NCBI GenBank assembly: GCA_013823855.1
Contig: PNMW01000059.1
Span: 1-64,000 of the forward strand
From: Lysobacteraceae bacterium
GTDB lineage: Bacteria; Pseudomonadota; Gammaproteobacteria; Nevskiales; Nevskiaceae
Direction: 5' to 3'
DNA: 64,000 nucleotides
Position numbers and translations under genes: made by a program. Shown one piece after another: positions 7,194 to 31,831 of this stretch; within the stretch, counting starts at the first letter, position 1, and every line of letters starts with the position of its first letter. A model generated the notes under the pieces. It was not told the origin of the DNA and did not search any database. It worked only from the letters and a program-made list of their open reading frames with translations.

Positions 7194-7204
7194 GGGTTCT
7201 TGGG

Positions 7205-10918: not shown

Positions 10919-10990
10919 TTGCTTCGTTAGCCGAGCAGGCACTTCGAAGGCTGCTGATGAAAGTCGGCCTTAGATCGGCTTGAAGTCATT

Positions 10991-13046: not shown

Positions 13047-13262
13047 ATGTGGTCTGCTCCGACACGTTCTATACCGAATGACGTGATGAGACTAAAGGTG
13101 ATCCGGGTGCGTCGGCTGCGATGCTGACCTATTTCGATACCCGTTTCGTTGGCTCTCTCCGACGTCTCGCTCCGAACCATACGATATTGCCCTTCCGATT
13201 GCCGATGCCATTTCTGGGAAGCCTCTCAGGACGTCAGATGAAGCATGACGGCCGCTAATTTC

Positions 13263-14969
13263 TCACATCCACTCCGTCACTTGCTGTTCCGTGCGAAGGC
13301 GCAGCCGACGCCATTCAAGCCCGTCGAAGACGTGCTCGAGCGTATCGGCGGATGCGATGGGGAGGGCCGCCTCAGCTTCACGTTCAAACTGCTGCCGAAG
13401 AACGGGATCATCAAGCCAAGCGCGCTCCCACCAGCTTTGAATATTCGTACGGGCGGTCGAAAGCCGGGCCTGTGAAGGAAGTCGTTCCCGCTTCTGGTTT
13501 CGATTGACCGATTCAGAGCTCGGCATCAGGTTCCACAGGTCATTGCAGGGCCATGCAGACCAGGGCAGGCAATGGTCGATGTCGACTTCGGATTTCCGAA
13601 GATCGGCCCCTGTCCAGACGCATCTCACGGGCACGCCGGCGGTTCGTATCCGTTCAACCGTCGATCGTGCAAAACGGGTGTCCCGATCGTGCTCGATCCA
13701 CGCCAAGGCATCGGTAACGTGGCCGAGTTCGATCGAAGATTGTGGTCCGGCATATACCTTGACCAACCGTGACCACTCTGCGATCAGCACCGGCTCGATC
13801 CAACTGCCGAGCTGCATCAGGCTGCGCCAAACCGGGCCGGGGATGGTCAGCGATCCGAACTGCTCGAGGAGAGTGCGGTCGATAACGCGACCGTCCGAGC
13901 GACTGGGGAGTTTCTGCCGTTGGGCGATGAAGATCGGCTGGCTCGATGCGGGGTAGGTGATGTGATGCGCCGGCATCCGTGTGATGAGTTCACTGGCCTC
14001 TGACAGAGCAAGGATGACGCTGTGGCCGGTTTCCGCGGAAAACTGGGCGCCGATCCGGAGGTCTTGGCTTAAAAACTGTCCGTTCAGTAACGCGCGAAAG
14101 CCCTCTTTCGCAAATCCCAGCCCATCAGGTCCCTGATTCCTCGGTGTCTGTGGCAAGCGCTTGGCCACAAGCGGCAGATACATGCGCACCCACGCGAGCG
14201 CAACGGCGCCCAACGGAATCTTTACTGCGTCTTCATCTGGCAGTGGCCTCGCCAGAGACGGCATTGCGTCGGCGACCTTTGCGATCGCCCGGAGCAGGCC
14301 CAGTTTGTACGTCGACGACTTGTCGTCCTTGAGGATGATCCCTCGCAGTGTCGGCAGAGCGCCGGAGCCGTCGTCGGGAAGCCGAAGCGCGACGCTGGTC
14401 CACGTGACCCCGGTTCGCCCCATTTGGTCGGTCGACGCCGCTGACTTCAGGACGACCAGCCCATGATTTCTGGCGAGTCCTTCTACCTCGCCGAGGGGCG
14501 CGGGCCACATTGGGCGATCCGCCTCGGCAGGTCCCTCCCGAAGGCTCATCAGCACCACGCCGCCGGGCTTGAGCAGGGTGACGATCTTGCGAAACGCGCG
14601 CTCGCGTTCGTCTGGCGGCACGTGCATCCATACAGCGCTCAGCAAGATCAGGTCGTACGCAATACCCCGCTCGTGAACACGAGCCAGCCCTGGAAGGCGG
14701 TCGTCCAGCCAATGAATGGCTGAATCAGCATGGCGGGTCTGTGCCTCGCGGCGCATCGCGGCGGAAGGTTCAACCGCCACCACGGTGTAACCCATGGATG
14801 CCAGCCACGCGGCATCGCGCCCGGACCCCGCACCGATGTCGAGGGCGGTTCGGTCAGTGCCCGGCAAGACGAATTCCCGGAGCGCGCCGTGCACCGCCTC
14901 CGATTGCAACGACTCGTAGCTCGCCGCAAAGCGTTCGGCGTTGCTGTTATAGGGCTCAACCGTGTTCAC
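13263..14969 (-). CDS. Class I SAM-dependent methyltransferase fused to HNH endonuclease
   Basis: N-terminal SAM motif (TALDIGAGSGRDAAWLASMGYTVVAVEPS); C-terminal HNH (VRCVWTGADLRKSEVDIDHCLPWSAWPCNDLWNLMPSSESVNRNQK). GTG start at 14969 preferred over 15029. Confidence 0.8.
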   Translation of the reverse strand: MNTVEPYNSNAERFAASYESLQSEAVHGALREFVLPGTDRTALDIGAGSGRDAAWLASMGYTVVAVEPSAAMRREAQTRHADSAIHWLDDRLPGLARVHERGIAYDLILLSAVWMHVPPDERERAFRKIVTLLKPGGVVLMSLREGPAEADRPMWPAPLGEVEGLARNHGLVVLKSAASTDQMGRTGVTWTSVALRLPDDGSGALPTLRGIILKDDKSSTYKLGLLRAIAKVADAMPSLARPLPDEDAVKIPLGAVALAWVRMYLPLVAKRLPQTPRNQGPDGLGFAKEGFRALLNGQFLSQDLRIGAQFSAETGHSVILALSEASELITRMPAHHITYPASSQPIFIAQRQKLPSRSDGRVIDRTLLEQFGSLTIPGPVWRSLMQLGSWIEPVLIAEWSRLVKVYAGPQSSIELGHVTDALAWIEHDRDTRFARSTVERIRTAGVPVRCVWTGADLRKSEVDIDHCLPWSAWPCNDLWNLMPSSESVNRNQKRERLPSQARLSTARTNIQSWWERAWLDDPVLRQQFEREAEAALPIASADTLEHVFDGLEWRRLRLRTEQQVTEWM

Positions 14970-15048
14970 AGACCAAGCATAGCGACCTGTCTGGCATCGC
15001 AGTCGGTTGCCGCGCTCCCAGTACAACACTCCACCGACTCGTCCTCAT

Positions 15049-15588
15049 TTATCCGCCTCTGTTCGGCTTCTTGCGTTTCTGGGCCCGGAATTCCCAAGGC
15101 GGCATCGGATCGGCATCCGCCCATAGCCCGGAACGCGCTCGCTTGGCAGCCGCCTCGTCGTCGAGCAGCGTCATGTCCGTCAGGTACTTTCGGTAGGCCC
15201 ACGCATAGCCGCGCCGGATCATTTCCCGGTTGGCATCCGTCCTTCCGATCCAGACCCTGGCAATGCTGCGGCCGTATCGGTCCGTGTCGGTGATGTCGAG
15301 GCGAACCTCGCGCCCGAACACCAGATCCGAGAGCGCGACCTTGGCCTTGGCACCAAAGGGCTGACCGCGCTCCGGCGCGTCGATCTCGGCCGGGCGCACT
15401 TTCACTTCCGTCCGGTCGCACAGCACCTTGATGGTGTCGCCGTCGGTGACGCCGACGACCCGGCCGGTACAAGCGAAAGCCGCACCGGCGACCAGCAGCA
15501 GGATGGCGCCGATCCCAGCCTTGATCGCTTCGGGGAGGATTGATGGATTTCTGTCCACCAGTGGATGAATCACGAGGTCCCAGATCAC
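15049..15588 (-). CDS. Staphylococcal-nuclease-like (thermonuclease family) protein with N-terminal hydrophobic segment
   Basis: GRVVGVTDGDTIKVLCDRTEVKVRPAEIDAPERGQPFGAKAK...DRYGRSIARVWIG is a typical SNase core. GTG start. Confidence 0.85.
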   Translation of the reverse strand: MIWDLVIHPLVDRNPSILPEAIKAGIGAILLLVAGAAFACTGRVVGVTDGDTIKVLCDRTEVKVRPAEIDAPERGQPFGAKAKVALSDLVFGREVRLDITDTDRYGRSIARVWIGRTDANREMIRRGYAWAYRKYLTDMTLLDDEAAAKRARSGLWADADPMPPWEFRAQKRKKPNRGG

Positions 15589-15704
15589 TGATCGCCGTCC
15601 GCTGCCCGGCCGCGCGGCTCCACGACCCGTGTGAGGATGTCGGCGTACCGCGCCTTATCCACCTTGAAGGCCTTGTTGCCGCGGGGACAGACGATGTCGT
15701 GCAT
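15585..15704 (-). CDS. Small 39-aa ORF overlapping the SNase start
   Basis: My own translation from ATG 15704: MHDIVCPRGNKAFKVDKARYADILTRVVEPRGRAADGDQ*. Its TGA overlaps the GTG start of the SNase gene. Confidence 0.4.
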   Translation of the reverse strand: MHDIVCPRGNKAFKVDKARYADILTRVVEPRGRAADGDQ

Positions 15705-15862
15705 GGGTTTCAGGGGAGGGGGCGGTGGAGAGCGACGACAGCTTCAATGCCAATCTGATTGTCCGTGAGCCGCGGCAGGCATGACGCGACCTGATGGCCG
15801 GTACCGTGACCTGCGGCAGCAATCGGGGCTTGAAGTCGCGCTTGCGATCACGTTGAATTACG

Positions 15863-15882
15863 ATATGGCTAAATTTCCATAT
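15863..15882. promoter_or_regulatory. Candidate operator palindrome ATATGG-N8-CCATAT upstream of umuD
   Basis: atatgg ctaaattt ccatat read directly, 19-38 bp upstream of the likely umuD start (ATG 15901). Confidence 0.4.
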
Positions 15883-15900
15883 TCGCAATGTGATGGCCCC

Positions 15901-16452
15901 ATGTCTGACCTACCGCCGCCTTCTTCTCCGGACCCCGTACGGCTCTCGGGCGCGGGTCTCACCGCGCGCCGGGTGCCGTTCCGTCGGTCTTTCTTCGATC
16001 TCCCAGACGCCCCGACCCTGATCCCGGTTGCATCAAGCCCGCCGAAACTGAAGATCACCGCCAAGCTGACCCGGGTGGCGGCGGGGTTTCCGTCGCCGGC
16101 CGATGACTACCTCGAGGACGGGATCGACCTGAACCGGCTGCTGGTCCGGAATGCGCCAGCGACGTTCTTCTACACCGTCGAGAAAGGCGCGGATTCGATG
16201 CTGAATCGTGGCATCGAGGGCGGTGACCGACTGCTGGTCGACCGGTCGATCGAACCCCGGAGCGGCCACTTGGTGCTGGCGATCATTCCCGGTGAAGGGG
16301 CAACGGTGAAGGAGCTTCAGATCCGGGGGATGACGACCCGGCTGGTGCCGCACTCCCCGAACCCGGCACACAAAGCCCGGGTATTCCGGGAGGGAGACGA
16401 GCTGGTGGTGGTCGGTGTGGTCACCAGCTGCATCAAGCAGTTCCGGACGTGA
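15901..16452 (+). CDS. umuD: UmuD-like/LexA-family S24 autopeptidase, error-prone repair accessory
   Basis: [41 protein letters not shown] with Ala-Gly cleavage-like site and catalytic Ser; Lys in [12 protein letters not shown]-type overlap with umuC. Confidence 0.9.
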
Positions 16453-17723
16453 CCGGGTCGGTCTTCGCGCTCGTCGACGTCAACAACTTCTACGTCAGCT
16501 GCGAGCGGGTCTTTGACTGGCGGCTCTGGGGTAAGCCGGTGGTGGTGCTGTCGAACAACGACGGCTGTGTCGTGGCCCGGAGTCCGGAGATCAAGGCGCT
16601 GGGCATCAAGATGGGTACGCCCTGGCACAAGCTGAAAGACCAGGCCCGGCAGCACGGCATCGTCGCCCTGTCCTCGAACTACACGCTGTATGGCGACATG
16701 AGCCGCCGGGTTATGACGATCCTGGCGGACTTCGCGCCCCGACAGGAGGTGTATTCCATCGACGAGTGCTTCCTCGATGTCACCGGAATCCCCGGGCTGA
16801 CGGCCTATGGGCATCAGATCCGGGCTCGTATCCAGCAGTGGGTGGGGCTGCCGGTCTGTGTCGGCTACGCCGAAACCAAGACGCTGGCGAAGCTTGCGAA
16901 CCATTGCGCCAAGACAGGTCTGGCTGGCGCTGACGGGGTTTGCGATCTGACCGCGCTCAGCCGAACCGACCGCGATGCCCTCATCGATCGGATCGATGTT
17001 GGCGAGGTGTGGGGTGTGGGTCGTCGGCTGGTGCCGCAGCTCGAGGCGATGCGGATCAACACTGTCGGCGATCTACGTCGTGCGGACGTTGCGACGATCC
17101 GGTCGAGGTTCGGGGTGGTGCTGGAACGCACGGTCCGAGAACTGAGGGAAGAAGACTGCCTGCAGCTGGAAGCCGTCGCGCCCGACAAGGACCAGATCAT
17201 GGCGTCGCGATCCTTCGGGCGGCCGGTGACGGAACTGAGTGAACTACGAGAAGCGGTAATCACCTACGTCACCCGGGCGGGCGAAAAGCTGCGCCGGCAG
17301 AAGTCGGTGGCGTCTTCGGTGCTGGTGTCGCTACGAACCAACCCCTTCAACGATGACCCGCAATACGCCCGGCAGATCGTGATGCCGCTACCGCACCCGA
17401 CCGACGACACGTTGGCACTGGCTGACGCAGCAGAGCGCGGGATCCGGCAGATCTACCGACCCAGGTTCCGATACCACAAGGCAGGGGTGATGCTGATGGG
17501 GCTGATGCCCGCCGAGCACCGACAGACGACGTTGTTCGAGGACACGGACGCCATCGCACGGCGGAAGCGTCTCAACGACGCCGTCGACAAGATCAACGGC
17601 AAGTTCGGGCGGCGAACGGTTGAGCTGGCCGGGGCGGGTATAGCCAAGTCCTGGTCGATGCGTGCTCGGAATCGGACGCCGGCTTACACCACTGACTGGG
17701 AGGCGCTGCCGACCGCCCGGTAA
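16449..17723 (+). CDS. umuC: Y-family DNA polymerase UmuC
   Basis: [51 protein letters not shown] ... [13 protein letters not shown]. Confidence 0.95.
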
Positions 17724-17874
17724 ATAAGTCAGAGTTTGGTAAAAACCTAGTTGACCGGAATGATGTGTCGCCGAAAAAGCGAACGTCGCAGCCCAAAGCG
17801 GTCATCTGAAAATGCTTGGCAATAACTCGTATGCTTACCAGATACGAAGACTAGCTTAAATCCAAAAGCAAACA

Positions 17875-18801
17875 GTGACAGACCACAAGCACGACCTAGG
17901 GGCCATGGGTGAGGGACTAGCTTCATGGCAATTAGCGACAGTTATGAACGGCGAAGCAGTCCGAGAAACCATGCGTGGTGAAGGTATTGGGGCACTAGAT
18001 CTGCAGGTTAAAGTTCCTGTGATGTTCCCGACGAAAACTCACCACCAAATTGCTGTTCAAGTAAAGGCTGGAAAGAGCTTTGCCACCTGGACGCCCACCA
18101 AGAATCGATGGCGATTCAACAATATTGATCGCGGACACATTGAAAAATGGCGAGGTTCGAACCAGCCCACCCTTCTTCTTTGGGTGAGAATGGATCCAAG
18201 GACCAAGGTGTACTGGAAATTTGTAGGTCCAACCACCCCTCTAGCAGCACTATCGTTTTCGGAGCATCACACGCTGACGCCCGCTGCTCGTTTCGAGATT
18301 GAGCGATTGCTACAAATGTACAGAATGCCCCGCACCGCCGTGCCCAAAATAACTGTGCCAAAAATGGCAGGGGTTATCGCCGTTAGGAACTGGGCTGCCC
18401 CGAAGTTCCAGAAAATTCGCGGGACCCATGAATGCCCGCTTGGAACGGTCATCATCTCGAATTATGTATGGCGGCATTTAACGCGTATAACGAGAACACA
18501 GTCACATGTTGTTGATAGCCTTACCGCACTTCCGTACATTAAGACGTTACTGGATATTCGTCCGCATCAGCTACAGACGCTCAATCAATCCCTAACCGAA
18601 CTGAACGGAGTCACCAAGGTATCTAGGAAAGTTCTCGCGATCTATAGAGATGTCCGTTTTTCGGACAAAGGAACCTGCGTGACTTATGTTCGACTAGATG
18701 AGCGCGTAACCTTCCCGAGCAATTGGCGAGAGACAGGGCTCACACGGGGGAACATTAGGCAACAGCTTCGACTTGAGAGTATTTTTCGCAAGCCAACCTA
18801 A
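17875..18801 (+). CDS. DUF4365 domain-containing protein with uncharacterised C-terminal region
   Basis: N-terminus HDLGAMGEGLASWQL ... GIGALDLQVKVPVMFPTKTHHQIAVQVKAGKSF (nuclease-like DUF4365 pattern with QVKAG). GTG start. Confidence 0.65.
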   Translation: MTDHKHDLGAMGEGLASWQLATVMNGEAVRETMRGEGIGALDLQVKVPVMFPTKTHHQIAVQVKAGKSFATWTPTKNRWRFNNIDRGHIEKWRGSNQPTLLLWVRMDPRTKVYWKFVGPTTPLAALSFSEHHTLTPAARFEIERLLQMYRMPRTAVPKITVPKMAGVIAVRNWAAPKFQKIRGTHECPLGTVIISNYVWRHLTRITRTQSHVVDSLTALPYIKTLLDIRPHQLQTLNQSLTELNGVTKVSRKVLAIYRDVRFSDKGTCVTYVRLDERVTFPSNWRETGLTRGNIRQQLRLESIFRKPT

Positions 18802-19158
18802 GAAGGCGCGACCCCCCCCTCTTCGCATACCACCCTGTCGAGTTTGTGCGCATGAATGCGCCCAAGGTTTCAACACGTGCTTGTGAAGCGCTAGAGCACG
18901 AACGCGCGCGAGAACTGGGGGGTCGCCAGGGGATGCTGCGACTAATTCGCTTCCGCGTCAATCCCTAGGATAAGAAGCGCCAGCTGTCCGTTTCTGGCAC
19001 CTAGGGGCGGCCAAAAGTCGCTTTGCAGCCCGAAGCGGACCTTGGAAAGAACGCGTGGCGCCCTCGCATTGACAGTTCTTCACCGATGCATTTGCAGTGC
19101 GTCGGGCTATCTCGGGAACACAATGAATTTGCATAGCTAATCGCCAGGGAGCTGGAAA

Positions 19159-22100
19159 TTGAATACCGATGAATATGAGCGCACAGGCCGTGCCCTACAC
19201 GCGGACTTCGCGGAAACGGTAGCGTCCATCTTGGAGTCGGCGATCTCCAAGGCCGGCGGTTTCAGGCTACAGCAGGTCAAGTCTCGGGCGAAGGACTGCG
19301 GGTCTCTACGCAAGAAGCTTATCGGGCGCGGGCTTCAGGACTCGCAGACCATCGAAGCAGAGATCAAGGATCTCGCGGGATGCCGCGCAATCTTCTACAC
19401 CAATGGCGACGTCACACGATTCGTCCGTTCCGGCCTAGTGCAAGAAAACTTCGAAGTGCTTGAGGTGAAGCTGCATCAGCCTGCGCCAACGGTGGATGAC
19501 GCCAAGGATCTATATGTGTCGAACCACTTTGTAGTCCGGCTGAAGCCAGATCGACTTTCTCTTACGGAGTACTCGCATCTGGCAGCGCTTCGCTGCGAGA
19601 TTCAGGTGCAGACTATCCTGAATCACACTTGGGCTGAGATGGCTCACGACATCATTTACAAGGAGCCCGAGATCGGCTCCGCCTTTGGCAGGGCTGCTTT
19701 TCAGCTGATCAAGGACCGCATGAAGCGGATCGCCGAGGTCTACTTGGTTCCAGCCGGCCACGAGGTGCAAAAGGTCGCGACCGATTTTCAAAGGTTGGTC
19801 GAAGGTAAAGAACTCTTTGACGGCAGGGCCCTAGATGAGGTTGTTTCGGCAGCGAATAACAACGCACGGGCCGACGCGCTCTCGACCTTTGCCGAGAACG
19901 TGCTCCCGCTGTACGACGATATCAACTCCGTTTACCCGGAGGTGGTATGGAAGCTTGTTGAGGCAACACGTCTTGCTAAAGACACTGCGTCGATCCCGAT
20001 CGAGACACCTTTCGGCACGCTCAATGCCAAGACCTTCGACGACATCGTGGCGGCTGTCGCGGAGGTGTTCAGGCAATACCGTTACGTTGATATCAAGCTA
20101 ACGATGGAGGCTCTACTGAGTCTATGGCTGCTTGAGCCGTCGGAAAAAGGTCGCAAGGCACTTCTGAAACTAGCGAAGGCCCTCGCGGATCACCAGATAG
20201 AGGTCTGGAAAAAGGTGGGCCCTAGAGTCCAAGAGATCCTCGTCGAGCGGATCGCGAAATTCGGTGACGACGAACTTGAAGCTTATCGCACCTTGGTTGT
20301 CGCCATGCTCGAAAGCTTGCTCGGAACCGAAGTGCGGGGAACGACATCCAGTTCATCAGCAGTCACGCTCCACCGCGGAGCAGTTGTCGCATCGAGCCGA
20401 TTGGCCGAATTGAGGGCAGTTGCGATCGCGCAGCTAAAGCGGCTTTTTGAACTGGCGACGACGGACAAAGATCGGGCCTTCGTGCTCCAGGCGCTGTACA
20501 AGGCGACGCAGCATCCCATCAATGTTTCAGGGAGTGACGCGCTCGCATTGCAGATCATGGAAGACTGCGCGCGCGTGATCGATTACTGGATCGAGATCGC
20601 GCCACGGTTGAGTCTTGAGCTGACACAACGCACAGAGGTCCGGGTTCACTGGCTACATCGCGCCTACTCCGCCCTACCGCCGTTGTTGCAGGGGAAACCA
20701 GAGTTCGAGGCCATGCAGGCTCATCTGATCGATTCGGCCATCCGCTTCCGCGACGCCGTCAACGCCAACGAGGACTACGTCATCTACAAAACCTTGGTCG
20801 GCTTTGACTCGGTGTTTGCGCCGCACTGGGAGCATCCGCCGCACGATTACGAGAGAGACAAGAAATACAGGAAAAGCCTGGAAGACCAACTGCTGGAGCG
20901 AGTCGACGAAGGCGGCGCGGAATTGTGGTTCGATCGCCTGAACCGCTACGCGATGACCGACGACACCGATCGCGCGACATTCATGACCTTTGGTAGCTTC
21001 ATCCACCAGATCGCCGCGACTCGCCCGCATGTGGCGATGCGGTTTATCGCGCGACTACAGCCGCCTTTGGAAAGCTTTCTGCCCGCGTTCCTGAAGGGGC
21101 TGGGCGAGAGCACGGCGCGCAAACAGGCCGAAGCGCTGATGAATCACTGGATAGATACCAACCGATACCTGGTCGAGATCAGCTTGTACTTTCGATCGAT
21201 GGTACCACCCGACCACGACCTTTTCCGCAAGTTGCTGGTCCGCGCCAAGGAGGTTGGCGACTTGCGGTCGGTCTGCAACATGATCATCGCCGCGTCCGAT
21301 CAATTTGAACGCGAGCCCGGAACGCTGATCGACGAAATTTTGCTTCCTGCGATCAGTTACCTGGCCGAACGGGGCAACTTCGACTGGCTGCACAACAGCA
21401 TGGTGTCTTGGTATGAAAGCAAGGTTGCCATGGCAATGGAACTGCCTCAGGCTGAAAGGATGTTGCAGGCCTTGGCTCGGCTACCCGAAATTGAGTCGAG
21501 TGCCGAACAGGTGCTGGGAGCCGTTGCAGAGAGATGGCCAGCAGCCGTTCTACAGTATTTCGCTGAACGTCTCGCACTTGAGCGTACGGACGCTAAGCCG
21601 ACGGGGTTCAATGCGATCCCTTATTCCATCCATCAGCTCTCACGCCCGCTGTCGGCTCAGCCGGACTTGCTGCTGGCCGTTGCCAGGGGGTGGTACGAAC
21701 AATATCCAGAACACTTCCAGTTCGAAGGCGGTCGGCTCATAGCAGCTGTGTTCAACGGGCTGCCTCCGGAGCTATCCGAACGACTCGACCGTATCGCGGA
21801 CGAGGGAACCACGGAAGCGCTCGAGTTCGTACTCGCAGTTCTCGACTGCATGGAAGGTGTGCCGCAGATCTTCGAGCTGGTTCGCAAAGTCGTCTCGATG
21901 CTACCCGCGGACAGTCCTTTACTCTCGGACGCGCATTCGGTGCTTATGAAGACTAGCGTGGTGAGAGGCGAGTTTGGGTTCGCCGAAGCCTATGAACAGA
22001 AGCGTCTAGCGGTCGCACCTTGGAGGGAGGACACCAGCGAACCAGTGCGATCGTTCGCCACCGAGTTCGTTCGCCGGATGGACGGCGAGATCGCGGCCGA

Positions 22101-22188
22101 ACATCGGTCCGCAGAAGCGTCCATCGCCATGCGCAAGCTGAGCTACGGAGAAAGCATTCGGCCCATGGACGGAGCGACGGGATCCTAG
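19159..22188 (+). CDS. Long RelA/SpoT-domain protein (1009 aa) with about 800-aa helical C-terminal region
   Basis: Synthetase-type motifs: CGSLRKKLIGRG, IKDLAGCRAIFY, YVSNHFVVRL, LRCEIQVQTILNHTWAEMAHDIIYK. The rest is unrecognised alpha-helical, possibly HEAT-like. TTG start. Confidence 0.8.
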   Translation: MNTDEYERTGRALHADFAETVASILESAISKAGGFRLQQVKSRAKDCGSLRKKLIGRGLQDSQTIEAEIKDLAGCRAIFYTNGDVTRFVRSGLVQENFEVLEVKLHQPAPTVDDAKDLYVSNHFVVRLKPDRLSLTEYSHLAALRCEIQVQTILNHTWAEMAHDIIYKEPEIGSAFGRAAFQLIKDRMKRIAEVYLVPAGHEVQKVATDFQRLVEGKELFDGRALDEVVSAANNNARADALSTFAENVLPLYDDINSVYPEVVWKLVEATRLAKDTASIPIETPFGTLNAKTFDDIVAAVAEVFRQYRYVDIKLTMEALLSLWLLEPSEKGRKALLKLAKALADHQIEVWKKVGPRVQEILVERIAKFGDDELEAYRTLVVAMLESLLGTEVRGTTSSSSAVTLHRGAVVASSRLAELRAVAIAQLKRLFELATTDKDRAFVLQALYKATQHPINVSGSDALALQIMEDCARVIDYWIEIAPRLSLELTQRTEVRVHWLHRAYSALPPLLQGKPEFEAMQAHLIDSAIRFRDAVNANEDYVIYKTLVGFDSVFAPHWEHPPHDYERDKKYRKSLEDQLLERVDEGGAELWFDRLNRYAMTDDTDRATFMTFGSFIHQIAATRPHVAMRFIARLQPPLESFLPAFLKGLGESTARKQAEALMNHWIDTNRYLVEISLYFRSMVPPDHDLFRKLLVRAKEVGDLRSVCNMIIAASDQFEREPGTLIDEILLPAISYLAERGNFDWLHNSMVSWYESKVAMAMELPQAERMLQALARLPEIESSAEQVLGAVAERWPAAVLQYFAERLALERTDAKPTGFNAIPYSIHQLSRPLSAQPDLLLAVARGWYEQYPEHFQFEGGRLIAAVFNGLPPELSERLDRIADEGTTEALEFVLAVLDCMEGVPQIFELVRKVVSMLPADSPLLSDAHSVLMKTSVVRGEFGFAEAYEQKRLAVAPWREDTSEPVRSFATEFVRRMDGEIAAEHRSAEASIAMRKLSYGESIRPMDGATGS

Positions 22189-22556
22189 CTTTTTGAGGCA
22201 GAAAACACATCGCGCTAACTAGTTTGATGGCATTCCGGTTGGATTGGACGTCACAATCAAATGCATCATGATGAGGGCCTTAGCCACGATAGTCCAACTT
22301 AAAACGCGACTGGCAGCTTCTGGCACCTCACGGACAGACATTGTTCTGACTTGACCCGTGATGCTCCGATGGCGCTCCAAGATGTCTTGGCGGTCAGGCC
22401 GATAAGGGGCAGGACTGCCGAAGTGCGGCAAACGGGAAGGTCCGACGATCCTCCGGCTGGGGCGGTACGCCCAATCGACGCGCAGCATTTGCTTCCACTG
22501 TTGCTGCTGACCAGCCCCCGCGACGTCGCTCTGAGCGGTCTACGGAAGGCTGGCCG

Positions 22557-22853
22557 GTCCAAATCGCCGGACTGAAGGCGATCTATCGGGACGGCTATCG
22601 GTACAAGAAGTCAGGCGTGATGCTGATGCAACTGATGCCGAAAGCGGAACGGCAGGCGACGCTGTTCGAGGATGTCAATGCCATCGCTCGGCGTGCTCGA
22701 CTGAACGAAGCGGTTGATCGGATCAATGCCCGGTTCGGTCGCAGGACCGTCGGGCTGGCCGGTGCAGGACTCGCGAAACGATGGGCGATGCGCTCGGAAA
22801 ATCGGACGCAGGCTTACACCACCCGGTGGGATGAGCTGCCGATGGTGAGATAG
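22557..22853 (+). pseudogene. 3' remnant of a second umuC
   Basis: YKKSGVMLMQLMPKAERQATLFEDVNAIARRARLNEAVDRINARFGRRTVGLAGAGLAKRWAMRSENRTQAYTTRWDELPMVR parallels the UmuC C-terminus ([83 protein letters not shown]). No polymerase core upstream. Confidence 0.85.
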
Positions 22854-22865
22854 GCTCCTTCCAGC

Positions 22866-24092
22866 TGCGGGTTCAACCGGTGGATGCAACAGCTTGGCGA
22901 TATCGTTCTGCTGGGGTCTGATAGTTGAGCGTTTTTCTCGGCCGTTCGTTCAGACGCCGAGCGATTGCGTTGAGCTTGGCCTGCGAGTGGACGGATAGAT
23001 CGGTGCCCTTCGGTAGATATTGCCGCAATAGTCCATTTGTATTTTCGTTCGTCCCTCTTTGCCACGGGTTCTGCGGGTCGCAGAAGTAAACCTGGACATC
23101 AGTCGCCAGCGTGAAGCGCCGATGCTCAGCCATCTCATGACCGCGATCCCAGGTCAGCGACCGGTAGAGCTCCTGCGGCAGCTTCCGTGCGTTCTTGATC
23201 AGTGCGTCGACGACGACTTCCGTGTGCTTGCTGGCCACCTTCACGAGCATTACATATCTCGTCTGCCGCTCGACGAGCGTCGCAATCTGGGTATCGGTAG
23301 TGCCGAAGAGCAGGTCGCCTTCCCAGTGCCCGGGTACGGCACGGTCATCGACCGACGGCGGCCGCTCACTGATCGACACGGTTTCGAGAATACGACCATG
23401 GTCACCGGTCTTCTGCGTGTGGTGTCGCGACCGGCGCATCGTTCGGGTACGACGCAGATACGCGAGGAGCTCCTTCTTCAAAGCCCCTCGCGTTTGAATG
23501 TAAAGCGTTCGGTAGATGGTCTCGTGGGACACCTGATCACTCGCGTCGAGGCAGGTCCGCTTTAGCCACCCAGCAATCTGCTCCGGCGACCATTCACGCT
23601 GCAGCTTCTCGGCCACCTGGCGAGCCAGGCTGGTATTCAACGCGAGCTTACAGACCTTGGGGCGCTTTGCCCGGTCCCATGCGGCGGCATCTGCTTGATG
23701 TGCCCGATAGCCGCCCGGGCCGCCGTTGCGCGTTATCTCCCGGCTGATCGTTGAAGGCGCTCGGCCCAATGCATCAGCGATCGACCGGATCGACCGACCG
23801 GCAACTAGGCTCCGAGAGACTTCTTCCCGCTCCGCCAACGTCATTGCACGGTCTGAGCGTCGCCGCCGAGGCGGCTCAATGCCGCCAGTGACCGATAAAA
23901 TCCGCTGAACCGATGAGTGGTTTCGATCAAATAGCTGAGCGATCTTCTGTAACGAGTCGCCTTTGCGCCAGCGCTCCCACATCAACGCTTTCTGGCTTTC
24001 GCTGTAATAAATCCGAGGTCTTTGAGGCATTTGCAGCACTCCCTCCTGCTCAGGGCAGGATCAGTGTGTTGCATCCACCGGTTGAACCCGCA
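22866..24092 (-). mobile_element. IS30-family insertion sequence
   Basis: Perfect 26-bp terminal inverted repeats tgcgggttcaaccggtggatgcaaca (22866-22891) and its reverse complement (24067-24092), flanked by a possible 2-bp GC duplication. Confidence 0.92.
22873..24039 (-). CDS. IS30 family transposase
   Basis: HTH regions plus DDE core (VPGHWEGDLLFGTTDTQIATLVERQTRYVMLVKV ... LTWDRGHEMAEHRRF ... DPQNPWQRGTNENTNGLLRQYLPKGTDL). Confidence 0.95.
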   Translation of the reverse strand: MLQMPQRPRIYYSESQKALMWERWRKGDSLQKIAQLFDRNHSSVQRILSVTGGIEPPRRRRSDRAMTLAEREEVSRSLVAGRSIRSIADALGRAPSTISREITRNGGPGGYRAHQADAAAWDRAKRPKVCKLALNTSLARQVAEKLQREWSPEQIAGWLKRTCLDASDQVSHETIYRTLYIQTRGALKKELLAYLRRTRTMRRSRHHTQKTGDHGRILETVSISERPPSVDDRAVPGHWEGDLLFGTTDTQIATLVERQTRYVMLVKVASKHTEVVVDALIKNARKLPQELYRSLTWDRGHEMAEHRRFTLATDVQVYFCDPQNPWQRGTNENTNGLLRQYLPKGTDLSVHSQAKLNAIARRLNERPRKTLNYQTPAERYRQAVASTG

Positions 24093-24200
24093 GCCCGAAG
24101 CGGACAGTGACAGCATCATGCGATCTGCCGACACGAAGACGTTCTTGCGTTACTGATTCGGCGTCAGCCTTGCGCATCATCCGGGAACTCTGCAACGCGT

Positions 24201-25328
24201 TCAGTCTCGCTGCAGGGGCCCTGTCTTCGACTCGGTCCGCATTGATCGTACGCGTTTCGCTGCCCGCCGGACCGAGTCCTTTCGCGTGCCGTTCGCTGGC
24301 GTCATCACGTGCTGCTTTGCGCGCGTAGTCTGCGCTGCCGTCACAGAGGAATTCGAATCGGGTGCCGCTTCTACATCGGTGGCATTGCGGCGAATCACGC
24401 GCGGCGATTGGCCCAGAACACGGAGAAACGCCAGGCGCATGTGATCCGCGCTCGTGAAGCCGACCGCAGCCGCGATCACCTCGAGAGTCTCGCGGCCCTC
24501 CTCGGCCCTCGGCTTGGCCGCCTCGACGCGAAGCCGCTCCACGAGCTTGGCGGGTGTTGTGCCCGTGGCGTGCATGAACGCGCGGCCGAATTGCCGGACG
24601 CTGAGGTTGGCGATCTCCGCGAGGCGCTCCACCGTCAGTGAATCCCCGAGGTGCTCGCGCACATGCGACAAGACTCGGCGCATCCGGTCGGTATCCGGGT
24701 CTACCCTGAGCAGGGTCGAGAACTGGAGCTGTCCTCCCGTCCGCCGCTGTGCGATCACGAGCTGACGCGCGATGGTCCGGGTGAGCTCGCGCCCGTAATC
24801 ATCCTCGATCATGGCCAGCGCGAGGTCGATCCCCGCGGTGATGCCGGCCGATGTCCAGAGTCGGCCGTCACGCGTGAAGATGCGATCGCCATCGACGCGA
24901 ATGCGGGGGTAAGCGGCCTGGAGGGCCGAGGCGTAAAACCAGTGCGTCGTCGCGCGCCGACCGTTCAGTGCTCCCGCGGCTGCAAGGACGAAGGCGCCCA
25001 CGCAGACACTCGCCACGCGACGCACGCGACGACGAATCGCCGACTGCACAAGCGCGATCTGATCGGAGGGCACTGCGACCTGTGTGCTGCGTTCCCCGGC
25101 GATGACGAACAAGGTGTCGAGCCCTTCGATGGAAGCCGGCTCGGTGGAGATGACCAGGCCTTCGCAACTCCGCACCGGGCCACCGTTGTGCGACAGGAAT
25201 CGCAGTCGGTAGCGCTCTTGTCCATCGGCATTGGCCAGAAAGAACGGCTCGAGCGCGCCGCTCAGGTCTAGAACGACGAAATCCGGGGTGACGAAGAAGC
25301 CGATCGTCAACGTGGAGCGCGGGGCCAT
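24201..25328 (-). CDS. GlxA-family AraC-type transcriptional regulator (DJ-1/PfpI domain plus AraC HTH)
   Basis: MAPRSTLTIGFFVTPDFVVLDLSGALEPF... VASVCVGAFVLAAAGALNGRRATTHW... and HTH LTVERLAEIANLSVRQFGRAFMHATGTTPAKLVERLRVEAAK. Confidence 0.9.
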   Translation of the reverse strand: MAPRSTLTIGFFVTPDFVVLDLSGALEPFFLANADGQERYRLRFLSHNGGPVRSCEGLVISTEPASIEGLDTLFVIAGERSTQVAVPSDQIALVQSAIRRRVRRVASVCVGAFVLAAAGALNGRRATTHWFYASALQAAYPRIRVDGDRIFTRDGRLWTSAGITAGIDLALAMIEDDYGRELTRTIARQLVIAQRRTGGQLQFSTLLRVDPDTDRMRRVLSHVREHLGDSLTVERLAEIANLSVRQFGRAFMHATGTTPAKLVERLRVEAAKPRAEEGRETLEVIAAAVGFTSADHMRLAFLRVLGQSPRVIRRNATDVEAAPDSNSSVTAAQTTRAKQHVMTPANGTRKDSVRRAAKRVRSMRTESKTGPLQRD

Positions 25329-25470
25329 GGTCGGTGCGAAAGAAGTTCGGAGACGCCAGTCTAGGACAGTGCAAATCGGCCGTACCGAAGATGGCCTTAA
25401 TCGACGGAAGAATGACCTTGTGTGGAACGGTGCTGCCGACGATCCTGCATGCACACCACCGGAGTCGCTC

Positions 25471-26169
25471 ATGAAGATCGCTTGCTATCTGTATCCCGGC
25501 TTCACTTCCCTGGACCTCATTGCCCCGATCACGGTCTGGCAGTTCGTACCGGGCGTGCAGTTCGAATTCATTGCTGCGAAGAAGGGTCCGGTCGACACCG
25601 ACACGGGCTTGGCGATGAGCGCCACCCACACCTACGCCGATGCATCCAGTGCTCCCGATGTCGTGTTCGTTCCCGGTGGTGCAACGCCGACGTACGAGGC
25701 GCTTTCGGACCAGGCGCTGCTCGACTCCATCGCCAAGTCGAGCACCCATGCGAAATGGGTCAGCAGTGTCTGCACCGGATCGCTGTTGCTCGGTGCCGCT
25801 GGCCTGCTGCAGGGATACCGCGCGGCCAGCCACTGGTTTGCACGCGATCTCCTGAGCGAGTTCGGCGCGATGCCCGACGACGCACGCGTCGTGATCGATC
25901 GCAACCGTGCGACTGGCGGCGGCGTCACCGCGGGCATGGACTTCGCGCTGCACATGGCGGGCCAGTGGGGTGGCGAACCCGCCGGCAAGTTGATCGAACT
26001 GATCGTGGAGTACGCGCCGCAGCCGCCGTTCAAGACTGGCCGACCGGAACTGGCCGACGCGGAGACCTTGGCGACCGCTCGCCAGGTCATCGAACCGTTG
26101 ATGCCGGCCGCGCTGGCCCAGCAGGCGGGAGCGCGACTCAAGCATCGACGAGCGGCGCATCCCGCCTGA
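25471..26169 (+). CDS. DJ-1/PfpI family protein
   Basis: MKIACYLYPGFTSLDLIAPITVWQFVPG ... WVSSVCTGSLLLGAAGLLQGYRAASHW (nucleophile elbow Cys). Confidence 0.92.
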   Translation: MKIACYLYPGFTSLDLIAPITVWQFVPGVQFEFIAAKKGPVDTDTGLAMSATHTYADASSAPDVVFVPGGATPTYEALSDQALLDSIAKSSTHAKWVSSVCTGSLLLGAAGLLQGYRAASHWFARDLLSEFGAMPDDARVVIDRNRATGGGVTAGMDFALHMAGQWGGEPAGKLIELIVEYAPQPPFKTGRPELADAETLATARQVIEPLMPAALAQQAGARLKHRRAAHPA

Positions 26170-26211
26170 TCGACCGCAGACCGCGATGCCCCGCTCGACC
26201 CAGGAACCCAC

Positions 26212-26958
26212 ATGAGACTCTCAGGAAAAGCCGCCTTGATCACCGGCGGCACCAGCGGCATAGGCGTGGCAACCGCCAAGCTGTTCGTCCAGGAAGGCGC
26301 GAAGGTCGCAGTCACGGGGCGCGACGAATCCAAGTTCGACGAGGTCAGAAAATCCCTCGGCACGGATGCTCTAATCATCAAGGTCGAGGTCCGTTCGCTC
26401 GCCGACGTGAAGGAGATGAGCCGGCAGGTCGGGGACCGTTTCGGTGGGGTCGACATCTTCTTCGGCAATGCCGGTCGCGCCCTTGCTTCGCCGCTGGACT
26501 CCACGGATGAAGCGCTATACGACGAGCTCATGGATAGCAACGTGAAGGGCCTGTTCTTCTCGATGCAGGCCATTGCACCCCTTCTGCGAGAAGGCGGCTC
26601 TGTGATCCTCAACACCAGCTTCCTGAATTCGACCGGCCGCATTGGGCTGTCACTCACGGCCGCGTCGAAGGCGGCCGTGCGCTCCTTCGCGCGGACCTGG
26701 TCGCAGGAACTGCTGCCGCGCAAGATTCGCGTCAACGCCGTGTCGCCTGGATTCATCAAGACCCCGATCATGTTGCGGATGGGCATGAGCGCAGAAGAAG
26801 TGAAGACACAGCAGGCCGGGGCCGCCTCGATCATTCCCATCGGCCGCATGGGAGAGCCGGAGGAGATTGCCGCCGCCACGCTGTTTCTCGCGAGCGATGA
26901 CTCAAGGTACGTCGTCGGCGCCGAGCTGGTGGTCGACGGTGGCATCTCGCAGCTCTGA
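26212..26958 (+). CDS. SDR family oxidoreductase
   Basis: KAALITGGTSGIGVATAKLF, catalytic SLTAASKAAV region, C-terminal YVVGAELVVDGGISQL. Confidence 0.95.
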   Translation: MRLSGKAALITGGTSGIGVATAKLFVQEGAKVAVTGRDESKFDEVRKSLGTDALIIKVEVRSLADVKEMSRQVGDRFGGVDIFFGNAGRALASPLDSTDEALYDELMDSNVKGLFFSMQAIAPLLREGGSVILNTSFLNSTGRIGLSLTAASKAAVRSFARTWSQELLPRKIRVNAVSPGFIKTPIMLRMGMSAEEVKTQQAGAASIIPIGRMGEPEEIAAATLFLASDDSRYVVGAELVVDGGISQL

Positions 26959-26996
26959 GTCTCATTCGTGGCCTGTATCTGCAACGGAGCCATTTC

Positions 26997-27410
26997 GTGC
27001 CCAAGACCATCGTCGAGATTCCAGAGGACAACCCGCAATTCAAAGGCGACCACTGGACGTTCGAGGAGTACGGCTATTCCGCAGCCGTGCGCGCCGGCGG
27101 TCTGCTCTTTATCGCTGGCATCGTGGGCTTCCGGCCTGACGGCACCATTCCCGAGTCGGTAGCCGAGCAGTCTGAGCTGGCCCTGAAGCGCACAGCGGAA
27201 CTGCTGCGCCTTGAAGGCCTGACGATGGCCGACCTCGTCGAGGTCGTCAGCTACCACGTGGATCTCGCAAAGAATTTGCCCGACTTCATCGCGGCCAAGG
27301 AACGCTACTTTCAGAAGCCGTTTCCCACCTGGACCATCCTCGGCATTCAAGCACTCGCACTGCCCGCGCTGAAGATCGAGGTTCGCAGCATCGCGGCCCT
27401 GAAGGCGTAG
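26997..27410 (+). CDS. RidA (YjgF/UK114) family protein
   Basis: YGYSAAVRAGGLLFIAGIVGFRPDGT ... LTMADLVEVVSYHVDL ... LPALKIEVRSIAAL. GTG start. Confidence 0.85.
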   Translation: MPKTIVEIPEDNPQFKGDHWTFEEYGYSAAVRAGGLLFIAGIVGFRPDGTIPESVAEQSELALKRTAELLRLEGLTMADLVEVVSYHVDLAKNLPDFIAAKERYFQKPFPTWTILGIQALALPALKIEVRSIAALKA

Positions 27411-27652
27411 CTCGTCCGATTCACGGGCGCTGATCCAATGTTGCTGTTGGCGTCACGGCAGCTCGCAGGGACGTGGCGAGCGTTGCTGTCGACTCCGATT
27501 GCGGATACTGGCGGCTGACCGCTTTTGGCACGCAACCGACCGATTAGCCGACGGGTGCTGTTAGCCCCAAGCGGTCGTTTGACGAAGTTGCCCGGCCCAT
27601 TCGAAGGAGACATTCGAGAGCGCCCATTGCCAGTGAAACGATGGGTGGCGGC

Positions 27653-28099
27653 TCAGACGGCGGGCGAACGCTTGGGGCGAGTTGGCAGCGGGAATTCGGA
27701 CTGGCGCAGGGCGCCCGATGCTGCGTCTTTCAGGAGACGCTGAAACGTCGCGCACTCCGCGTGACTCGGTGCAGGACAGGCTGCGGCGTGGCGCAGTCCG
27801 CGGCTGACGGCGCGCAGCTGCTTGATGCGGGTGTCGATCTCGTGCGCCTTCTGCGAGAGCAGCGTGCGGTCGATCTCGAACTTCCCCTGCGGCGTGAGCA
27901 TGAGCTTGATCTCGTCGAGGGACAGACCTGCTGTTTGGCCTAGGGCGATGAGGCCGAGCTGCTGGATCACCGTCGGAGCGAAGATCCGCCGAGCGCCGCG
28001 GCGGTTGAGGGAGGTAATCAAGCCCTGGCGCTCGTAGTAGCGCAGGGCCGACGCAGCGATACCGGTTTGCCTCGCCACCTGCGAAATATCCACCTGCAC
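27653..28099 (-). CDS. MerR family transcriptional regulator
   Basis: MQVDISQVARQTGIAASALRYYERQGLITSLNRRGARRIF. Confidence 0.92.
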   Translation of the reverse strand: MQVDISQVARQTGIAASALRYYERQGLITSLNRRGARRIFAPTVIQQLGLIALGQTAGLSLDEIKLMLTPQGKFEIDRTLLSQKAHEIDTRIKQLRAVSRGLRHAAACPAPSHAECATFQRLLKDAASGALRQSEFPLPTRPKRSPAV

Positions 28100-28107
28100 C
28101 CCCTTGC

Positions 28108-28125
28108 GTTGAAGTCGACTTCAAC
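28108..28125. promoter_or_regulatory. MerR-type operator palindrome GTTGAAGTCGACTTCAAC
   Basis: Perfect 18-bp palindrome between the divergent merR gene and the 28177 gene, adjacent to TTGCGT (28104) with a TATCGT 19 bp downstream. Confidence 0.7.
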
Positions 28126-28176
28126 TTGTATCGTCGCTTCTCACTTCAACGCAAAGCAACTGCACGGGGGTTCGCC

Positions 28177-28668
28177 ATGTCCACGATCGCCATCATTCTC
28201 TCAGTCCTTGCCATCGGGAGCGGCGCGACGTTGGTGATGGACGCCTGGCTTGTAGTCCTGCGTCGGTTGGGCGTGCGCACCGCCAGCATCGGCTTGATCG
28301 GGCGATGGGTGGCGCACATGCCGCGTGGACGCTTCTTGCACGCTTCGATCGCCAAGGCCGCGCCCGTCGAGCGCGAGAACGCGTTGGGCTGGGCCGTGCA
28401 CTACGCCATCGGTGTCGTCTTCGCGGGCCTGTTGGTCGCGATGACCGGCACCGGGTGGATCCAGACGCCGACCTGGGTCCCGGCGCTGATGTTCGGGGTG
28501 GTCTCAGTGGCAGCGCCGTTATTGGTCATGCAGCCGACAATGGGCTCGGGGCTTCTCGCCTCGAAGACTCCGACACCCTGGGCCAATTGCTTGCGCAGCT
28601 TGGTGAACCACAGCGTCTTCGGTATGGGCCTCTACGCCTCGGCGCTCGCGGTGGCGCAGCTCGTGTAG
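28177..28668 (+). CDS. DUF2938-like membrane protein
   Basis: MSTIAIILSVLAIGSGATLVMDAWLVVLRRLGV ... WAVHYAIGVVFAGLLVAMTGTGW; several TM segments. Confidence 0.75.
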   Translation: MSTIAIILSVLAIGSGATLVMDAWLVVLRRLGVRTASIGLIGRWVAHMPRGRFLHASIAKAAPVERENALGWAVHYAIGVVFAGLLVAMTGTGWIQTPTWVPALMFGVVSVAAPLLVMQPTMGSGLLASKTPTPWANCLRSLVNHSVFGMGLYASALAVAQLV

Positions 28669-28711
28669 CAGCGAACCTTCTTCCTATTCACATTCAACAT
28701 CGGAGCATTCC

Positions 28712-29302
28712 ATGAACAAGATCGCAGTTGTGTATCACAGTGCCCACGGGCACACGGCGTTTATTGCCGGCGAGATCGCAGAGGGCGTTGCGGCGCAGGG
28801 CGACGCAACGGTCGCGGTACTCAAGGCGGAGGCGTTGATCGCGCGCCCCGACGAGCTGGTCGCCTATGACGGACTGATCCTTGGGTCGCCTACCTATCTC
28901 GGCGGCGTCTCCGGTGTGTTCAAGACGATGATGGATGCCACTGGCGGCCTTTGGAAGCGCCAGGAGTTGGCAGGCAAGCTCGCCGCGGGCTTCACCGTGT
29001 CGTCATTGCCGGCCGGCGACAAGCAGTCGACCTTGCAGTCGATGTTCACGTTCTGCATGCAGCACGGGATGATCTGGGTCGGGAATGCGGTGCTGCCGGA
29101 GCAACATTCCGGCGTGGCCTACGACGAGGCGTCAAACCGGCTCGGATCATGGACCGGGCTGATGGCGCAGGCGCGGCATGGGGCGCCGTCCGATGCGTTC
29201 CCGCCGGGCGATTCCAAGGGGGCCCGACTGTTCGGCGCGAACTTCTCACGCACGCTTGCACGCGTCGGCAGGGCGCAGATCGTCGAGCGGGTGGCCGCAT
29301 GA
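28712..29302 (+). CDS. Flavodoxin/NAD(P)H:quinone oxidoreductase family protein
   Basis: MNKIAVVYHSAHGHTAFIAGEIAEG ... YDGLILGSPTYLGGVSGVFKTMMDATGGLW. Confidence 0.9.
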   Translation: MNKIAVVYHSAHGHTAFIAGEIAEGVAAQGDATVAVLKAEALIARPDELVAYDGLILGSPTYLGGVSGVFKTMMDATGGLWKRQELAGKLAAGFTVSSLPAGDKQSTLQSMFTFCMQHGMIWVGNAVLPEQHSGVAYDEASNRLGSWTGLMAQARHGAPSDAFPPGDSKGARLFGANFSRTLARVGRAQIVERVAA

Positions 29303-29529
29303 TCGCGCCTCGATATGCGCCGGTGCTGCTCAGCGCGATCCTGTCCGGGACGATGTCGCTCATCGTGTCGGCGATTTCGACCCTGCGTGTTCTGGGGCTT
29401 GATTCGGATTTTGTGCCGGCGTGGCTTGCGTCGTGGGGCATCGCTTGGGCGATCTCGTTTCCGACCGTGGCGGTGATCGCCCCCGTCACTCGTTGGATCG
29501 TTCAGGCAATGACCGCACGGACGCCATGA
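29299..29529 (+). CDS. DUF2798-like small membrane protein
   Basis: MIAPRYAPVLLSAILSGTMSLIVSAISTLRVLGLDSDFVPAWLASWGIAWAISFPTVAVIAPVTRWIVQ; ATGA overlap with the flavodoxin gene. Confidence 0.7.
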   Translation: MIAPRYAPVLLSAILSGTMSLIVSAISTLRVLGLDSDFVPAWLASWGIAWAISFPTVAVIAPVTRWIVQAMTARTP

Positions 29530-29904
29530 GGATCGGCGCCACCGAACTATTCACCGCCGCCACTATCCGCTCCCGAGTGAAGGTCTGATCGAAATAAATT
29601 CGCGTCCTTAAGCCTGGGCGCGTATCGGTCCCGCGTCCATGACTTATTTTTCTCAGACGTCAGAGCGTTGGCCCAACTGCAATTTTGGGCTATGGGAAGA
29701 CGGAGGCAGACATTCGCGATCGGCGGGAATTGGCACAAATGTGACGTAGATCACAGTCCGCTGCCAGCTGTTTGCAGACATTCGTCGCAAGCACCTTCTT
29801 CTAGACAGAGTTACGAATCGCAGATCAACGGCTACAAATTTTTACGAGATTTACCAAAACTTACTGGTTTTACCAAATACATCAGGCTGTCACCAGCCAC
29901 TATA

Positions 29905-29964
29905 TTGTTCATGACTTTATTAGCTTGTTCACGACTTTATTAACTTGTTCACGACTTTAATTGT
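29905..29964. repeat. 20-bp unit x3 (TTGTTCAYGACTTTATTARC)
   Basis: ttgttcatgactttattagc / ttgttcacgactttattaac / ttgttcacgactttaattgt read directly. Confidence 0.92.
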
Positions 29965-29972
29965 CGAGAACA
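29905..29972 (-). mobile_element. Putative Tn7-like right end (three TnsB-like sites) at attTn7 next to glmS
   Basis: Read on the minus strand from glmS: TGTTCTCGACAATTAAAGTCGTGAACAAGTTAATAAAGTCGTGAACAAGCTAATAAAGTCATGAACAA. Terminal TGT plus three ~20-bp repeats, ending about 20 bp downstream of the glmS stop. Confidence 0.75.
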
Positions 29973-29995
29973 TCAATAAAAACAAATATTTGAAT

Positions 29996-31831
29996 CTATT
30001 CAACGGTCACGCTCTTGGCCAGGTTCCGGGGCTGGTCGACGTCGGTGCCGCGCAGCAGGGCGACGTGGTAGGCCAGCATCTGCAATGGCAGCGTGTAGAC
30101 GATCGGCGCCTGCAGCGGCGTGATGTGCTCGGGCATGGTAATCACTTCCACGCCGTCGCTGGCGGTGAAGCCGGACTCCGGGTCGGCGAACACGTAGAGC
30201 TTGCCGCCGCGGGCGCGGACTTCCTCGAGATTGGATTTCAGCTTTTCCAGCAGTGCGTTGTTCGGCGCCACGGCGATCACCGGCATGTCCTCGTCGATCA
30301 GTGCCAGCGGGCCGTGCTTGAGTTCGCCGGCCGGGTAGGCCTCGGCGTGGATGTAGGAGATTTCCTTCAGCTTCAGTGCGCCTTCGAGCGCCACCGGCCA
30401 GGTCGGGCCGCGGCCCAGGAACAGCGCGTGGCGCTTGTCGGCGAAGTGCCGCGCCAGCGCCTGGATCTGCACTTCCAGCTTCAGCGTGCGCTCGATCATT
30501 TCCGGCACGTGGGCCATCTGCCGCACGTACTGCGCTTCCACGGAAGCGCTCATGCCGTTGTGCCGGGCCAGCGCCACGCCGAGGATGCCGAGTGCGACCA
30601 GCTGGGTGGTGAAGGCCTTGGTCGAAGCGACGCCGATTTCCGGACCGGCGCGGGTCATCAGCACCAGATTGGCTTCGCGGACCAGCGACGATTCGGGCAC
30701 GTTGCAGATTGCCGCCGTTGCCAGATAGCCGAGCTTCTTCGCCTCGCGCAGCGCCGCCAGCGTGTCGGCGGTTTCGCCGGACTGGGAAATGGCCAGGAAC
30801 AGCGTGTCCTTCGGCACCACCGGATTGCGGTAGCGGTACTCGCTGGCGACCTCGACGGTGCACGGCAGCTTGGCGCCCTGCTCGATGTAGTAGCGGGCGA
30901 TCAGGCCGGCGTGATAGCTGGTGCCGCAGGCGACGATGTGGACATTGCGGATCTTCGGCAGCAGGGCTTCGGCCAGCGGGCCGAGTGCGCCGGTCAATAC
31001 CCGCTTGCCGGTGATCCGCTCGGCCAGGGTGTCGGCGATGGCGCGCGGCTGCTCGTGGATTTCCTTCTGCATGAAGTGCGCGTAGTCGCCGCGCTCGACG
31101 GCGTCTGCGGACAGGCTCGATTCGCGCACCGGGCGCTCGACGCGCGTGCCCTGGCGATCGACGATCAGCACGCTGTCCTCGCGGATTTCGGCGACATCGC
31201 CTTCCTCGAGGAAGCAGAAGCGGCGAGTTACCGGCAGCAGGGCCTGGACGTCGGAGGCGATGTAGTGCTCGCCGACGCCATAGCCGACCACCACCGGGCA
31301 GCCGGCGCGGGCCGCGACGATGCAGTCCGGGTCGAGCGGCGACACCAGGACGATCGCGTAGGCGCCGTGCAGCCGTGTGATCGCTGATTGCACGGCGGCG
31401 CGCAGCGAGCCGCAGGATTTCAACTCGTCGGCGACCAGGTGGGCGACCACTTCGGTGTCGGTTTCGCTGCTGAACGGGTAGCCCTTGCCGCGCAGTTCCT
31501 CGCGCAGTTCGTCGTGGTTCTCGATGATGCCGTTGTGCACCAGGCCGACGAGGTTGCTGCTGAAGTGCGGGTGGGCGTTGCGTTCGCTGGGCACGCCGTG
31601 AGTGGCCCAGCGGGTGTGCGAGATGCCGCGATGGCCGGTGATCGGATTGGCCGCGATGTCGTTGGCCAGTTGCTGCACCTTGCCCTGGGCGCGCCGTCGC
31701 TCCAGCTCGCCGTGGCAGGTCAGCAGCGCCACGCCGGCGGAGTCGTAGCCGCGATATTCGAGCCGGCGCAGACCTTCGACCAGGATCGGCGTGACATCAC
31801 GGGGGGCGACGGCGCCGACGATTCCGCACAT
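29996..31831 (-). CDS. glmS: Glutamine--fructose-6-phosphate aminotransferase (isomerizing)
   Basis: MCGIVGAVAPRDVTPILVEGLRRLEYRGYDSAGVAL ... C-terminus DVDQPRNLAKSVTVE. Confidence 0.98.
   Translation of the reverse strand: MCGIVGAVAPRDVTPILVEGLRRLEYRGYDSAGVALLTCHGELERRRAQGKVQQLANDIAANPITGHRGISHTRWATHGVPSERNAHPHFSSNLVGLVHNGIIENHDELREELRGKGYPFSSETDTEVVAHLVADELKSCGSLRAAVQSAITRLHGAYAIVLVSPLDPDCIVAARAGCPVVVGYGVGEHYIASDVQALLPVTRRFCFLEEGDVAEIREDSVLIVDRQGTRVERPVRESSLSADAVERGDYAHFMQKEIHEQPRAIADTLAERITGKRVLTGALGPLAEALLPKIRNVHIVACGTSYHAGLIARYYIEQGAKLPCTVEVASEYRYRNPVVPKDTLFLAISQSGETADTLAALREAKKLGYLATAAICNVPESSLVREANLVLMTRAGPEIGVASTKAFTTQLVALGILGVALARHNGMSASVEAQYVRQMAHVPEMIERTLKLEVQIQALARHFADKRHALFLGRGPTWPVALEGALKLKEISYIHAEAYPAGELKHGPLALIDEDMPVIAVAPNNALLEKLKSNLEEVRARGGKLYVFADPESGFTASDGVEVITMPEHITPLQAPIVYTLPLQMLAYHVALLRGTDVDQPRNLAKSVTVE

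Follow-up and report, generated by a model that had tools for sequence, protein, structure and literature searches.

The glmS locus and the island beside it

In the window, by which we mean the whole 64-kb stretch of DNA that was analysed, the attachment-site gene glmS occupies positions 29996-31831 of the minus strand and encodes a 611-aa protein with SIS and GATase domains that ends in NLAKSVTVE; its stop codon, TAG, lies at 29996-29998. Beyond the stop come the target DNA of attTn7 (29978-29995), a copy of the 5-bp target-site duplication TCAAT (29973-29977) and, at 29905-29972 on the minus strand, three abutting 20-bp sites of TnsB type that form a right transposon end, with the terminal TGT at 29972 in minus-strand reading and a distance of 23 bp from the stop when the duplication is counted. 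A preliminary description of this stretch had proposed here a Tn7-like right end in attTn7, with three ~20-bp repeats and a terminal TGT on the minus strand near glmS; the string that it quoted is present as given, and repeats, terminus and position are borne out. Of the range that it assigned to the feature, 29905-29998, the part up to 29972 stands; what follows is the duplication and then target DNA with the glmS stop.

With up to 3 mismatches allowed (<=3), AATAAAGTCGTGAACAA has three matches in the 64-kb window and no others: 29905-29921, 29925-29941 and 29945-29961 of the minus strand, spaced by exactly 20 bp, where shuffling predicts 0.03. An independent scan that assumed no motif and asked where three similar 14-mers cluster recovered the same place. 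AAAGTCRTGAACAA has no further occurrence anywhere in the 3.87-Mb genome, and no viral contig scanned contained the repeat pair.

The island that this end delimits reaches back to position 1 of the window, which is the first base of its contig (C6). It starts with a type I restriction-modification operon on the minus strand, which comprises the restriction subunit hsdR (62-3544), the methyltransferase hsdM (5682-7610), an hsdS-like specificity subunit (3355-4824; the end of this ORF overlaps the start of the hsdR ORF) and a RhuM-family gene (4652-5689). A CBASS locus follows on the plus strand (7879-10918), composed of a SAVED endonuclease effector (7879-9066), a CD-NTase (9063-10268) and an E2-like protein (10250-10918). 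Further cargo within 11910-29302 comprises genes for a NOV_C protein, a methyltransferase-HNH protein, a umuDC-like pair (15781-17723), DUF4365, a RelA/SpoT-domain protein, an IS30-type transposase (22873-24039, minus strand), AraC/DJ-1, SDR, RidA-like, MerR and DUF2938 proteins and a flavodoxin. The flavodoxin gene (28712-29302) and the DUF2798 gene (in frame within 28951-29529) that had been described just inside the right end are both real. The 1009-aa protein encoded at 19159-22188, with its N-terminal RelA/SpoT domain, weakly matches the candidate defence family PDC-S33. A 38-bp intergenic stretch at 29731-29768, with a CRP-site-like core, recurs at C1:166346 in the same genome (87%); that copy lies in intergenic DNA and was rejected as a transposon end. 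No tns gene is found in the 64-kb window.

The left end and the transposition genes on a second contig

Another contig of the same genome, C5, carries at 21453-21583 three spaced inverted copies of TAAAGTCGTGAAC, ending in TGTTTTCAACC with a terminal TGT, which constitute the left end, about 5 kb beyond tnsA; these copies differ from AAAGTCRTGAACAA in their tail (GAACTC/GAACAG) and were picked up by the mismatch scan. Directly outside this end lies TCAAT (C5:21584-21588), in the same orientation as the TCAAT that adjoins the right end, so that both the inverted left end and the duplication foreseen in the preliminary description have been located. Sites of this element's end type, hereafter N-type, number six in total, three per end, with no others inside the island; C5 holds only the left end of this type and C6 only the right.

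The empty site was looked for in 61 genomes, with a 1200-base query made by joining the flank on C5 to the one beside glmS and keeping a single TCAAT. A relative of the same genus (G014) matches positions 8-1200 of 1200 in one stretch at 84%, its convergent chaN-type and glmS genes lying 95 bp apart without the repeats, and in a further genome (G005) the chaN-type and glmS genes are likewise neighbours, about 0.5 kb apart. Because the joined outer flanks are uninterrupted in G014 and the two genes are neighbours in G005, a single insertion site has C5 on one side and C6 on the other; the relative with an empty glmS site that the preliminary description had called for thus exists. The features of a Tn7-like element, namely inverted multi-site ends with terminal TGT/ACA, a 5-bp duplication and an uninterrupted site in a relative, are all present, as is the position typical of the attTn7 subgroup (~20-25 bp past the glmS stop, with the R end adjoining glmS), the distance being 23 bp here and 22 and 23 bp in the relatives.

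C5 opens with ygjP and tnsD (627 aa), after which come the gene for a small HTH protein, a second tniQ (423 aa; its product is called TniQ2 below), a Wadjet-like operon, tnsC, tnsB and tnsA; tnsABC lie just inside the left end, and tnsD, the HTH gene and the second tniQ are convergent to them. All four of the genes tnsABCD that had been missing beside glmS are therefore on C5. Compared with the Tn7 proteins in PDB, TnsB gave 2e-39 with the three acidic residues of the D-D-E site aligned, TnsA 2e-19 with the E, D and K positions aligned, TnsC 2e-13 with the Walker A and B motifs aligned, and TnsD 5e-14; the catalytic positions are those of Tn7. The target selectors were also recognised by Pfam (TnsD 1.6e-48; TniQ 2.1e-10). 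All tns reading frames are open, and because TnsA, TnsB and TnsC keep their catalytic or ATPase motifs the element appears to be autonomous. The cas genes of a CAST were found nowhere among the Pfam-scanned ORFs of the C5 or C6 half.

TnsA-like and TniQ/TnsD domains occur in this genome on C5 and on C1, where a second, distant tnsABCD cluster, for which neither ends nor a target could be located, lies at 176652-182805 (L015 6652-12805). We considered the C1 cluster (176.6-182.8 kb) as part of the present element and rejected it, its TnsB being only 25% identical to that of C5 and no N-type site cluster lying nearby.

The two contigs were tested for an overlap of their ends and none was found. 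C6 starts with hsdR and C5 with ygjP (C5:44-649), in orientations that would make them consecutive genes of one operon if the contigs were joined, and within the order the two loci whose hsdR is most closely related each have a ygjP homologue directly after it; the type I operon thus seems to run on over the contig break and to include ygjP. We infer from this arrangement that C5 and C6 join directly, which would give 21,583 + 29,972 = 51,555 bp plus any gap and hence a full length of at least 51.6 kb. The window lacks tns genes because of the contig break and because these genes lie inside the left end, distal to glmS.

The C5 half adds to the cargo a Wadjet-like operon between the second tniQ and tnsC (C5 4900-11305), with DUF3584, MksE-like and DUF7281/JetD-like genes, of which PADLOC recognises only JetD. 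Judged by these predicted systems (type I restriction-modification, CBASS and Wadjet-like), the element is a defence island.

Relatives in the order and a nested second family of ends

A TnsB search of the contigs of related genomes returned no relative, and the DNA site pattern was used there instead; plasmid searches with TnsB and TniQ2 gave distant relatives only. Panacagrimonas perspica DSM 26377 (NZ_SOBT01000013.1, G021:C6 about 88.7-119.0 kb) carries a contiguous 30-kb sister element at the same glmS target, bounded by N-type sites, of which the three next to glmS abut and the three at the opposite end are spaced; its duplication, CCGTA on both sides, is perfect. Its tnsABC lie inside the left end with tnsD, the HTH gene and tniQ2 convergent to them, and its TnsB and TnsD are 45% and 51% identical to those of the present element; its cargo includes BREX genes and a SIR2 protein, with no Wadjet operon between tniQ2 and tnsC. 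The element of genome G060 has another site sequence with the same design of three abutting and three spaced sites and CGGCC on both sides; its tns genes are likewise on the left-end side, but tnsABC there point towards the left end. The left-end position of the tns genes is thus common to the present element, P. perspica and G060, unlike Tn7.

In Hydrocarboniphaga effusa AP103 (L060 3250-3640 / L079 2250-2640), glmS is followed by a right end of a second type, described below as X, and ~270 bp on by an orphan right end of N type, identical to that of the window over its first 18 bases; the genome gave no TnsB, TnsD or TniQ match. Repeats of right-end type can therefore persist without a transposase, as in this organism. 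Genome G002, in which TniQ has no match, contains beside glmS a right-end-like tandem site, AAATAAAGTCYGAGACA, with 20-bp spacing (L056 about 14966-15000).

The X ends belong to a Tn7-type end family different from that of the N ends, and damaged examples are nested inside the island. Site scans and motif-free cluster scans located three spaced copies of TTNGTAAAAYYCGTAA on the plus strand at 10988-11095, a left-end-like relic, and two abutting X-type sites on the minus strand at 29841-29884, a right-end-like relic ~20 bp inside the N right end that is without a terminal TGT and lacks the terminal bases seen in the G005 copy. X-type right ends directly adjoin glmS in G005, G013, G015 and H. 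effusa, and TniQ has no match in the last three of these. To judge by the placement of these relics, an older element without tns genes, now enclosed in the present one, probably makes up the right part of the island, and since they lie inside the island its assembly was not a single step.

Readings of the island and a candidate second target selector

We read the locus, with a probability of about 0.95, as a Tn7-like transposon of the cut-and-paste type, at least 51.6 kb (>=51.6 kb) long, in attTn7 downstream of glmS, with mostly anti-phage defence cargo. The ends, the duplication, the empty site, the intact tns frames with conserved putative catalytic residues and the sister elements are established at the level of sequence, and the Tn7-like defence element is apparently complete. 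The earlier suggestion that the 0-30 kb island is cargo of a Tn7-like element is supported, and of the three explanations then offered for its missing transposase the right one is that the tns genes lie outside the window; a non-autonomous element is not supported. By analogy with Tn7 biochemistry, TnsB would bind the three spaced sites of the left end and the three abutting sites of the right end and, together with TnsA, would excise the element; the 3' end of glmS would be the binding site of TnsD, and TnsC would connect this target with the transposase. The expected outcome would be insertion ~23 bp beyond the glmS stop, in which the 5 bp TCAAT are duplicated and the R end comes to adjoin glmS. 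What looked like an oddity, a Tn7 end without a transposase, is thus one side of an apparently complete defence island whose boundaries are known. Tn7-like elements with glmS-distal tns genes deliver islands of this kind in this bacterial order, and short windows beside glmS therefore miss those genes.

Repeated insertion at the same site could also have produced a composite island, in which the left and right ends derive from two insertions and the interior ends were deleted, leaving an older N-type element on the far side, an X-type element in the middle and, beside glmS, the last 68 bp of another N-type element. The nested X sites are in keeping with such a history, as are the closeness of the truncated X right relic to the N right end and the tandem X and N ends of H. 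effusa, and each insertion at one attTn7 position would produce an identical duplication. No second N-type end is left inside the island, however, the six N sites being divided three per end, and a single element with later nesting is a simpler account of the ends and the duplication; we therefore consider the composite origin rather unlikely. Far less probable is a non-autonomous element or orphan end, with a tns-less 30-kb island and a C5 tns cluster that belongs to a separate element: it would agree with the absence of any tns gene from the window and with the tns-less orphan end of the same type in H. effusa, but it leaves unexplained that C5 holds only a left and C6 only a right N-type end, that the outer flanks, each bearing TCAAT, are neighbours at the empty site, and that the type I operon appears to run across the contig break. 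We give practically no weight to the reading that the repeats have nothing to do with transposition and are an ordinary tandem or regulatory array following glmS, since the only other place with this site is the opposite boundary of the island, where it is inverted and adjoins the matching duplication, and the empty relative G014 is without the repeats.

The element so delimited shares with Tn7 of E. coli homologues of TnsA, TnsB, TnsC and TnsD with conserved active sites, the terminal TGT/ACA, abutting R and spaced L TnsB sites, the 5-bp duplication and an R end at about +23 from glmS. In Tn7 the right end contains four TnsB sites that partly overlap and the left end three that are separated (PMC13370975), whereas here the right end has three. 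The canonical tnsABCDE genes of Tn7 are situated just inside the right end; here tnsABC are inside the left end and tnsD is interior, a second TniQ is present, no TnsE is found among the Pfam-scanned C5 genes and the cargo is defensive instead of the antibiotic-resistance cassettes of Tn7. The combination of a long TnsD (627 aa) and a shorter TniQ (423 aa) with one tnsABC set is shared with the dual TniQ-TnsD elements (Faure et al. 2023, PMC10293859), from which the present one is set apart by the small HTH gene that accompanies its short tniQ. About 1,000 (~1,000) such dual loci are known and were proposed to give two targeting options (PMC10293859); the term 'xre' is absent from that paper. 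With the defence-carrying Tn7-like transposons of Benler et al. 2021 (PMC8649781) it shares the classes restriction-modification, CBASS and Wadjet, with BREX and SIR2 in the sister; none of those elements matched it by name, and it is otherwise ordinary. The element is thus Tn7-like, of a kind already known, and the HTH-tniQ2 pair is the one feature worth an experiment.

This pair consists of the small HTH gene (C5:2641-3132) and, downstream of it in the same direction, the second tniQ, and offers a concrete candidate for a target selector not recognised so far. TniQ2 and the HTH protein might form a second, protein-guided module for targets other than glmS, in which the HTH protein would recognise DNA and TniQ2 would pass the site to TnsC. 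Xre-type regulators of transposon genes are known, and the HTH protein may accordingly be either selector or regulator; for this reason the selector reading is put forward tentatively, as possible but on the doubtful side. Outside the order, a class-wide search with a TniQ2 profile gave only core-domain matches. Within it, the pair is found in four elements, those of the present genome (L012, on C5, 2641-4407), P. perspica, G060 and G050 (the other loci being L051 2866-4631, L054 5548-7280 and L122 8317-10043), with the gene order kept at TniQ2 identities down to 22%.
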